DNA of 58,116 bases. Source: an uncultured Bacteroidaceae bacterium (lineage in GTDB: Bacteria; Bacteroidota; Bacteroidia; Bacteroidales; Bacteroidaceae). Each line of letters starts with the position of its first letter. Position 1 is the first letter of the stretch. A program made the position numbers and the translations under genes. Positions 6,605-41,946 of the stretch are shown here, piece by piece. The notes beneath the pieces were generated by a model. The model did no database searches. It saw only the letters and a list, made by a program, of their open reading frames with translations, and was not told the DNA's origin. The stretch covers positions 1 to 58,116 of the forward strand of contig CAJONZ010000015.1 in assembly GCA_905236065.1 (NCBI GenBank), in the 5' to 3' direction.

Positions 6605-6682
6605 ACGCAGTACTCTATCCGAGATGAAGCTTAACTCTATTCAAGATGACGCAGTACTCTATTCAAATGTAGAGTTCTGCGT
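6605..6682. repeat. 22-bp periodic direct/inverted repeat element, copy 1
   Basis: Three direct units begin at 6605, 6627 and 6649, exactly 22 bases apart. Their 12-base cores are ACGCAGTACTCT, AAGCTTAACTCT (degenerate) and ACGCAGTACTCT. An inverted core, AGAGTTCTGCGT, follows in register at 6671-6682. The element lies between the convergent V-ATPase operon and ygiQ. Two more elements with the same layout are at 25029 and 41847. The rest of 6424-6712 holds only the operon terminator and short AT-rich sequence. Confidence 0.85.
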
Positions 6683-25028: not shown

Positions 25029-25128
25029 ACGCAGTACTCTTTCCGATTTCACGCAGAACTCTATTGGAGACAACGCAGAACTCTTTAAATGAATACAGTT
25101 CTGCGTCGTCTCAGATACAGTTCAGCGT
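25029..25128. repeat. 22-bp periodic direct/inverted repeat element, copy 2
   Basis: Direct cores ACGCAGTACTCT (25029), ACGCAGAACTCT (25051) and ACGCAGAACTCT (25073) are each followed by a 10-base spacer. In the same register come inverted cores ACAGTTCTGCGT (25095-25106) and ACAGTTCAGCGT (25117-25128). The element sits between convergent tcdA and DUF721. The rest of 24955-25189 shows no gene. Confidence 0.9.
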
Positions 25129-26667: not shown

Positions 26668-26689
26668 TGAAATTTTTGTAGGAAAATAG

Positions 26690-26719
26690 TTGTAGAGTCG
26701 TATAAAATTACTAATTTTG
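26690..26719 (+). promoter_or_regulatory. Promoter of tRNA-Gly
   Basis: TTG (26690-26692), 19 bases, then TAATTTTG (26712-26719), ending 16 bases before the mature tRNA 5' end. The spacing matches the Bacteroidetes consensus. Confidence 0.6.
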
Positions 26720-26735
26720 CAACGATTTTGGGTTT

Positions 26736-26808
26736 GCGATAGTAGCTCAGTTGGTAGAGCATTGGCTTCCCAAGCCGAGGGTCGCGGGTTCGAGTCCCGT
26801 CTGTCGCT
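26736..26808 (+). tRNA. tRNA-Gly (anticodon CCC)
   Basis: A 73-base cloverleaf. The acceptor stem is GCGATAG/CTGTCGC, the D-arm GCTC-AGTTGGTA-GAGC, the anticodon arm TTGGC-TTCCCAA-GCCGA with anticodon CCC, the variable loop GGGTC and the T-arm GCGGG-TTCGAGT-CCCGT. The discriminator base is T, as expected for glycine. CCA is not encoded. It reads GGG codons. It lies 23 bases upstream of the antiporter gene and may share its promoter. Confidence 0.95.
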
Positions 26809-26831
26809 CAAAATATAGGCGTGGTAATAAT

Positions 26832-41131: not shown

Positions 41132-41743
41132 ATGGAAACAGTACTTAGTTTGATTCTTATCATTATTACGGCCATTTTTGTCAACAATGTCGTTTTGGCC
41201 CAGTTTCTTGGCATTTGTCCCTTCCTTGGAGTCTCGAAAAATGTTAGTACAGCTTCGGGCATGGGCGGGGCCGTGACAGCCGTACTTATTGTGGCCACAG
41301 CTGTTACCTTCGCTATTCAGAAACTCGTCCTCGATGTATATGATTTAGGTTATTTGCAGACCATTGCGTTTATCCTTGTCATTGCGGCATTGGTTCAGAT
41401 GATAGAAATCATCTTGAAAAAATCCGCGCCCACTCTCTATCAGGCACTGGGTGTGTTCCTTCCGCTGATTACGACCAACTGCTGCATCCTCGGTGTGGCT
41501 ATCCTCGTCATTCAGAAGGATTTCAATTTGTGGGAAGGGTTAATCTATGCTGGTTCCACTGGTCTCGGTTTCCTGTTGGCCATGGTACTTTTTGCCGGCC
41601 TGCGTGAGCAGTTGGAAATGGTGAACGTGCCCAAGTCGTTTGCTGGCGTACCCATCGCTCTCATCACGGCAGGTCTTCTTGCCATGGCTTTCATGGGATT
41701 CAGTGGCGTTGACGGTGGCCTCAAGATTTTGTTCGGCTTGTAA
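41132..41743 (+). CDS. rnfA: Rnf complex subunit RnfA
   Basis: Integral membrane subunit of 203 residues with six helices, the inverted partner of RnfE. NNVVLAQFLGICPFLGVSK and LGVFLPLITTNCCILG carry the conserved cysteines of the shared cluster. It ends the operon and is followed after 59 bases by a strong terminator, then by the third 22-bp repeat element. In Na+- or H+-pumping Rnf the A, D and E subunits form the ion path. Confidence 0.97.
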   Translation: METVLSLILIIITAIFVNNVVLAQFLGICPFLGVSKNVSTASGMGGAVTAVLIVATAVTFAIQKLVLDVYDLGYLQTIAFILVIAALVQMIEIILKKSAPTLYQALGVFLPLITTNCCILGVAILVIQKDFNLWEGLIYAGSTGLGFLLAMVLFAGLREQLEMVNVPKSFAGVPIALITAGLLAMAFMGFSGVDGGLKILFGL

Positions 41744-41802: not shown

Positions 41803-41834
41803 AAATCTCCATCTTCGGATGGGGATTTTTTTTT
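41803..41834 (+). terminator. Terminator of the rnf operon
   Basis: AAATCTCCATC (41803-41813) pairs with GATGGGGATTT (41818-41828), 11 pairs with one G-U and a TTCG tetraloop. The Ts run on to 41834. Confidence 0.92.
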
Positions 41835-41846
41835 GTCCTTGGAATG

Positions 41847-41946
41847 ACGCAGTACTCTTCCCGATTTCACGCAGTACTCTTCTCGACTTCACGCAGAACT
41901 CTTTTCGTTTCTACAGTTCGTCGTGAAATCGGGAAGAGTTCTGCGT
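41847..41946. repeat. 22-bp periodic direct/inverted repeat element, copy 3
   Basis: The most regular copy. Direct cores are at 41847 (ACGCAGTACTCT), 41869 (ACGCAGTACTCT) and 41891 (ACGCAGAACTCT). Inverted cores in the same register are ACAGTTCGTCGT (41913-41924) and AGAGTTCTGCGT (41935-41946). The spacer of unit 1 (TCCCGATTTC) is also mirrored in the inverted half, giving long complementary arms. It lies 12 bases after the rnf terminator. Confidence 0.92.

Follow-up and report, generated by a model that had tools for sequence, protein, structure and literature searches.

A dispersed intergenic repeat with oriented 12-bp cores on a 22-bp lattice in an uncultured Bacteroidaceae bacterium

Bacterial dispersed repeats are usually defined by their sequence or by the shape of their hairpins. 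Plasmid iterons are direct repeats set about two helical turns apart and are bound by one protein on one face of the DNA. The element described here resembles iterons in the direct repetition of its sites and in their spacing, close to two turns of the helix, but it occupies some ninety chromosomal intergenic loci and carries an inverted unit at one end.

Two chromosomal systems invite closer comparison. According to the part of the source available to us, REP families are marked by an unpaired tag, GTAG or CGTC, at one end of a palindrome of 20 to 40 bp, and they share with the present family many intergenic copies, dyad symmetry, arrays, and species-specific families (PMC3733652). The family described here differs from REP/BIME-RAYT systems, as far as that text describes them, in its fixed 22-bp lattice of separate cores and in having no transposase flanked by lattice repeats. 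Among 74 elements analyzed, none ends in GTAG, and 37 have CGTC at the right end; the CGT of that motif lies within the pairing core, and so it is not an unpaired REP tag. In a related genome (G063, below), GTAG also falls within the core, where it can pair with CTAC. There is thus no fixed unpaired GTAG or CGTC tag in the family, nor is the Y1_Tnp transposase gene found in its genome flanked by lattice repeats.

The system nearest in kind and lineage that we found is BrickBuilt, a MITE of Porphyromonas gingivalis. The available part of its description reports 23-nt tandem units, 1 to about 23 in a row and without spacers, in 19 copies, with a leader and tail of up to about 300 nt, IS5-like terminal repeats, and terminators predicted beside 10 of the 19 (PMC4596501). 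Like the present family, BrickBuilt, as described there, belongs to Bacteroidales, is always intergenic, has units of nearly equal length, is nearly species restricted, and is predicted to form long stem-loops. That text reports no inverted units, however, whereas the elements here mostly have three units in one orientation and one in the other. Relative to the same description, they also differ in their exact 22-bp step, made of a 12-bp core and a 10-bp variable spacer, in their some ninety copies, and in their short, weak flanks, where conservation extends about 20 bp leftward in one class and, weakly, about 40 bp rightward. The statement in the first-pass annotation that it knew of no described family with this layout needs qualifying: the one open library searched yielded no 22-bp family of this kind, but BrickBuilt is the closest relation in kind that we found.

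The element in the window and its genome-wide family

The window, meaning the whole 58,116-nucleotide stretch analyzed, is contig 15 of the 130-contig, 2.73-Mb, 88% complete genome of a gut-type bacterium. The element occupies positions 41847..41946 (+) and consists of direct cores D1 (41847..41858) and D2 (41869..41880), both ACGCAGTACTCT, and D3 (41891..41902), ACGCAGAACTCT, followed on the minus strand by a degenerate inverted core with three mismatches (41913..41924) and an exact inverted core, ACGCAGAACTCT as read on that strand (41935..41946). All of these sit on a 22-bp lattice. Of the five cores originally claimed, four are exact copies of ACGCAGWACTCT, three of them direct (starting at 41847, 41869, and 41891) and one inverted (starting at 41935); the core at 41913 is degenerate. 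Similarly, the center of symmetry had been placed in the third spacer. Core orientation does change there, but the palindrome axis lies at 41896.5, inside D3, because spacer 1 (TCCCGATTTC) exactly complements spacer 4 (GAAATCGGGA), and the predicted fold of this copy shares the same register.

Two further elements on 22-bp lattices lie in the window. One, at 25029..25128 (+), has cores at 25029, 25051, and 25073 (+) and inverted cores at 25095 (one mismatch) and 25117 (two mismatches); the other, at 6605..6682 (+), has cores at 6605, 6627 (three mismatches), and 6649 (+) and one at 6671 (−). Across the window, 16 core matches at up to two mismatches were found versus 6.4 expected, a number reached by 0 of 100 shuffles. 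The upstream neighbor of the 41847 element is a 203-amino-acid open reading frame (41132..41743, +), which we take to be RnfA-like and which was used to locate the orthologous site in relatives. Between the two, a terminator-like hairpin with a T-run was read by eye at 41805..41834 (+). An Rfam search of the window at gathering thresholds returned only a tRNA, with no structured-RNA family matching the element.

Genome-wide, there are 280 exact cores (143 plus 137 by orientation) versus none for the reversed-word control, and so the family is not a product of chance. At up to three mismatches, 89 head-to-head centers and 201 direct pairs were counted. These matches make up some ninety short intergenic elements built on one 12-letter word in both orientations. 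We analyzed 74 elements (75 rows minus one duplicate) at 71 loci taken from among the matches listed, and further elements were seen beyond them. The canonical element, D1-s1-D2-s2-D3-s3-I, is 78 bp long and contains three direct cores and one inverted core separated by spacers s1 to s3; some copies, including that at 41847-41946, have an additional inverted core.

The spacing is strikingly rigid. When cores with up to one mismatch and within 200 bp were considered at the 71 loci and in the window, 204 neighboring-core intervals measured 22 bp, 5 measured 44 bp, and none took any other value (209/209). A subset picked by single exact cores alone (28 loci plus the window) gave intervals of 22 or 44 bp in 87 of 87 cases, and all exact cores among the matches listed (contigs 1 to 56) lie within lattice clusters. 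Moreover, the start-to-start step of 22 bp is unaltered across the switch from direct to inverted cores, as the first-pass annotation had said of the window copy. That annotation had further proposed a multicopy family with a fixed 22-bp step and had named two contrary outcomes, only three copies in the genome or a freely varying period; the 280 exact cores and the absence of any off-lattice interval among 209 uphold the proposal on both counts.

REP/BIME-like DNA had also been named as a possibility, and the distribution of the copies agrees with it. A simple gene caller based on codon usage puts none of the 74 elements entirely within a gene; two extend into the end of one, over 7 and 59 bp. 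A cruder list of open reading frames places six elements inside frames of 105 to 227 amino acids, all of which the codon-usage caller dropped. The 66 elements with genes on both sides lie in 28 tandem, 22 divergent, and 16 convergent contexts, and element-free gaps of at least 150 bp at the same loci comprise 23 tandem, 13 divergent, and 5 convergent ones. Elements sit closer to gene 3' ends (median of 70 bp, n = 60) than to 5' ends (median of 240 bp, n = 72). In tandem contexts, 16 elements have the same orientation as the genes and 12 the opposite. The 140 flanking proteins in this genome form small clusters only, the largest with 6 members, and association with a gene family was rejected for this genome.

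Conservation, pairing, and linkage among copies

Across the 74 elements, mean column conservation of D1, D2, D3, and I is 93 to 96%. Spacers are conserved by position, at 83% (s1), 77% (s2), and 67% (s3), and the distal columns fall to 57% (s4), 57% (the would-be I2), 47% (s5), and 41% (the would-be I3). Spacers had been described as variable between units; their position-specific conservation of 67 to 83% and their occurrence as discrete variants show that they do not vary freely. D1 has at most one mismatch in 67 of 74 elements and I2 in 8 of 74. Because D1 and D2 are kept at 93 to 95% while their would-be partner positions fall to 41 to 57%, the outer direct cores persist without a pairing partner.

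Pairing was evaluated by folding and by arm covariation. Predicted RNA folds of the three window copies on the given strand beat shuffles (z = −7.3, −5.4, and −2.2), as does the other strand of the first copy (z = −7.7). In block tests over the 74 elements, no covariation was detected for D2:I2 (z = −0.06), s1:s5 (z = −0.2), or D1:I3 (z = 0.55); s2:s4 complementarity is slightly above shuffles (z = 2.5, P = 0.0045), and D3:I1 shows a slight excess by column (0.930 versus 0.923, z = 2.3). The long hairpin proposed from the window copy is therefore well predicted for the window copies but is not supported as the conserved feature of the family, given that most arm tests lack covariation. The two halves of s3 pair less than shuffled halves do (z of −6 to −7), indicating that the element center avoids a perfect palindrome, and this center is found in both relative orientations (38 A/G and 18 G/A versus 2 G/G).

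Linkage was examined in 48 nonredundant canonical elements, drawn from 58 canonical ones among the 74. Linkage of polymorphic columns is strong inside a spacer (mean z of 4.5 for s1, 4.9 for s2, and 3.2 for s3) and weak between spacers (mean z of 0.5 to 1.0, with z >3 for 7 to 16% of column pairs). Whether the W position reads A or T is unlinked among D1, D2, and D3 (z = 0.4, −0.7, and 1.2), although linkage in single columns reaches z = 5.3 (W1 with s3) and 7.8 (W2 with s1). For 5-mer types, linkage is z = 3.9 across D1 and 1.9, 1.3, and 1.4 across D2, D3, and I. This pattern would be explained if copies had exchanged segments, with breakpoints inside the cores or close to them; a burst of copying followed by multibase changes could mimic it.

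Relatives, orthologous gaps, and transposase genes

In the collections searched, the core family is confined to this genome. Single cores number 0 to 2 in each of 60 relatives, level with the reversed control; the direct core pair is absent from 44 other congeners searched; the core was found 0 times in plasmids and 0 times in three scans of viral contigs; and a core-center scan of the genome_contigs collection gave 0 matches. The geometry extends further. Two of these congeners, G004 and G063, have their own 22-bp-lattice families of a related unit, GTGGCAGAACTGTGCCACTGCA, which occurs in either orientation and is interspersed with units of a second type. Pairs of GTGGCAGAACTGTGCCACTGCA at up to three mismatches number 46 in G004, 19 in G063, 21 in the window's genome, 1 in G018, and 0 in 41 others. 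On-lattice intervals account for 69/69 (G004) and 23/23 (G063) at element loci and for 10/10 and 4/5 in other stretches. The outer three arm bases of 123 palindromic units from the two genomes lack covariation (z = −1.1; 113 distinct units, z = −0.8).

G063 additionally has an unrelated core, GTAGGCAAT, with the same 22-bp geometry and several elements arranged D-D-I-I. Direct GTAGGCAAT pairs at up to two mismatches number 164 in G063, 0 in the window's genome, and 0 to 2 in each of the other genomes, where the reversed control gave 0 to 1. For 21 arm-spacer pairs of this type, hand-typed from listed rows, no covariation was detected (z = −0.4). The other 42 congeners have 0 to 2 matches in each of three pair searches, which means that a function, if there is one, is not shared across the genus. 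A pattern scan of 84,980 species genomes (genome_contigs, a collection that may leave out the window's own genome) gave 21 stretches, each of them in RUG14757 or RGIG3754, which match G004 and G063.

Steps between repeated intergenic 10-mers were also tallied. The commonest step is 22 bp in the window's genome (51 gaps, at loci chosen for the element), in G063 (13, followed by 14 bp with 10), and in G004 (7, followed by 14, 18, and 44 bp with 6). In G067, 22 bp occurs 4 times and 14 bp 5 times, and none occurs at 22 bp in G021, G025, or G068; steps of 14 and 21 bp are found in most of the genomes and stem in part from runs of heptamers. G067 has one TTGGAA..TTCCAA-like array at 22 bp, but exact TTGGAA-N6-TTCCAA occurs 0 times in 300 kb, and hence no family is claimed there.

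Seven orthologous gaps hold lattice elements that differ in sequence. The window's genome shares two with G004 (L071/L218 and L067/L235) and five with G063: L042/L248, L086/L239, L096/L247, L080/L156 (where the G063 element is of the GTAGGCAAT type), and the window's 41847 site, where a 21-bp tandem in G063 is framed by an inverted repeat resembling GTAGGCAA. At this last site, downstream of an rnfA-like gene (L104:2182-2311), the tandem of about 21 bp is AAGAATCATTGTTTGATTCTT, enclosed by inverted repeats GGAGCGAGATAGGCAA and TTGCCTATCTCGCTCC. Five of the seven shared relative loci were selected for holding arrays and at least seven comparisons were negative, so the rate of sharing is biased and suggestive only; site sharing was accordingly rejected as proof of ancestral arrays, and elements may simply prefer the same gaps. 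No shared element was found for L035/L262, L088/L165, the window's 6605 site versus L140, or L050/L163, where G004 begins an Lcl-type gene; the 41847 site in G004 has no element; the G063 array at L138:1312 has no counterpart at window positions 26677-26831; and L145:15248 versus contig 114 gave no element among the matches listed. Among 14 loci of relatives that correspond to the 41847 site, 13 have no 9-mer repeated at 21 to 23 bp. At a locus common to G004 and G063, beside a gene that is presumably sigma-factor-like, the two arrays agree in their first units and then diverge unit by unit.

Some G004 and G063 arrays lie 3' of paralogous proteins (e.g., L218:38-1009, L228:1949-2995, and L243:1651-2919), two of three of which, when scanned, gave Big_2 and weak Lcl_C matches. 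Such a paralog adjoins the array at 7 of 20 G004 and 3 of 11 G063 element loci; in other stretches, there are 3 matches in 200 kb (G004) and 0 in 296 kb (G063). Lcl_C matches number 35 in G004, 17 in G063, and 1, a weak one, in the window's genome, and association with Lcl_C genes was therefore rejected as an explanation for the class.

A link to a REP-associated transposase, which the first-pass annotation had proposed to look for, is not supported. One Y1_Tnp gene was found in the window's genome (88% complete); it encodes a RAYT-like protein of 147 amino acids (L036:2760-3800; G000 C10:11959-12999), and the repeats beside it are about 93 bp apart with GACGCT..AGCGTC palindromes, not lattice cores. 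These may be the gene's own REP family. The nearest lattice element is about 0.8 kb from the end of the gene. One of two G004 Y1_Tnp genes ends about 0.35 kb from an array, with other repeats alongside, and by a rough reckoning both genes lie nearer to arrays than expected by chance. G063 (84% complete) gave no Y1_Tnp match despite its lattice families, and at the Y1_Tnp loci L280 to L289, none of the exact 9-mer repeats carries the cores of the window's genome. A RAYT-driven REP family was rejected for these reasons: other repeats adjoin Y1_Tnp in both genomes, and G063 is without a match. In G004, a Y1_Tnp gene on C23 (L232:400-1200) is flanked by inverted repeats with GCCGTAGGCAT and ATGCCTACGGC motifs; the 8-mer CGTAGGCA of these repeats also occurs in G063 GTAGGCAAT elements.

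Candidate explanations for the lattice

With roughly even confidence, we propose that the element is a non-autonomous, BIME/MITE-like dispersed intergenic repeat that forms an array of oriented, putative duplex-DNA binding sites. Recognition of duplex DNA is favored by three features together: the spacing stays exact as the word changes, cores are conserved where a partner arm is missing, and covariation is mostly absent. Moreover, retention of the 22-bp geometry with different words in two related species, as judged from sequence, points to a binding-site array over a chance repeat. We infer that the 12-bp core would be the recognition word of a sequence-specific DNA-binding protein and that helical phasing would be the reason for the step, with 22 bp (about two helical turns) setting successive sites on the same face of the duplex and the protein reading one core per two turns; spacers would reassort by exchange between copies, and protein and word would change together between species. 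The earlier suggestion that the geometry suits a multisite DNA-binding protein agrees with the exact step, from which same-face placement would follow. Several observations weigh against this array of binding sites, however: common descent alone would carry the lattice along, hairpins of the window copies are strongly predicted, s2:s4 and D3:I1 show slight pairing excesses, residual linkage exists between spacers and across D1, the other 42 congeners have at most 2 matches per pair search, and the boundary analysis below gave no target-site duplication.

The predicted hairpins lend themselves to an alternative that we consider somewhat unlikely, in which the element acts in single-stranded form, either as DNA that is a REP-like HUH/RAYT substrate or as an RNA 3'-end structure. 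The folds of the window copies far exceed those of shuffles, G063 includes D-D-I-I elements that form nearly perfect hairpins, gene 3' ends are close by, Y1_Tnp genes end near arrays in two genomes, and half of the right ends (37/74) carry the CGTC known as a REP tag from the available part of PMC3733652. Yet D1 and D2 are conserved without partners, covariation is missing from three of five arm tests here and from both tests in relatives, G063 has 164 GTAGGCAAT pairs and no Y1_Tnp match, other repeats stand beside both Y1_Tnp genes, the CGT of CGTC sits in a pairing core, and orientation in tandem contexts is nearly even (16 versus 12). An inert selfish or mutational product, spread once by a transposase or by template switching, with the lattice merely inherited and read by no protein now, is unlikely in our estimation. 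It would account for the species restriction, the position between genes, the failure to find a dedicated gene, and the position-specific spacers, as copying predicts, but it fits poorly with cores held at 93 to 96% conservation amid drifting spacers and outer arms, with a step that stays the same in families whose words are unrelated or far diverged, and with 0 of 209 intervals off the lattice in the window's genome. The D3-s3-I layout (12-10-12, 34 bp) also resembles lox or FRT, with inverted arm sites around an asymmetric crossover and D1 and D2 as accessory sites. Such tyrosine-recombinase-like sites would suit the avoidance of perfect palindromes by the s3 halves, the occurrence of s3 in both relative orientations, and the loss of linkage between spacers; we nonetheless regard them as very improbable, because no recombinase is linked to the elements, gene conversion also predicts linkage loss, and the tandem arrays of the relatives lack a single central junction.

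How the elements spread is addressed by their boundaries. Target-site duplications at the 0/78 boundary were seen in 0 of 74 elements for lengths of 3, 4, 5, 6, 8, and 9 bp and in 8 of 74 for 2 bp. When the start was varied over −30 to 0 and the end over 78 to about 125, one of the best 3-bp boundary pairs, among many tried, slightly surpassed shuffles (12 versus a maximum of 11), and none of the top three pairs per length of at least 4 bp exceeded shuffles. In canonical copies, the outermost cores form a 12-bp inverted pair, but the inner ones repeat that word and the sequence varies on either flank. Copies may have moved without duplicating their target, or they may have arisen by recombination or template switching with one another.

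More broadly, we tentatively suggest, while thinking it somewhat unlikely as a whole, a class of chromosomal arrays in which geometry (22 bp, oriented units, variable center) is kept while the word is replaced genome-wide between congeners, partly at the same intergenic sites, with the arrays following an evolving DNA-binding or recombining protein and spacers exchanged as cassettes with breakpoints in the cores. Here the spacing is constant and the sequence variable, with three families in three species, which offers a way to ask directly how such repeats are selected. A search rule of lattice first and sequence second would find families missed by sequence comparison.

Other short-period repeats were noted in passing. 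Near Y1_Tnp genes, there is a tandem of about 21 bp in G019 (L284:3090-3175) and a short 22-bp repeat in G029 (L286:2119-2180), and low-complexity runs occur at L281, L283, and L284. G068 has several copies of a 23-bp tandem unit, ATTTAGCTTGATTACAAAAATAC, with an inverted piece at the end (L189:8007-8300). G063 carries AAATTGTCAAATTG-type low-complexity repeats at 23 bp (L138, L141, L147, and L149) and, elsewhere in its stretches, AAAAGTT heptamer runs.
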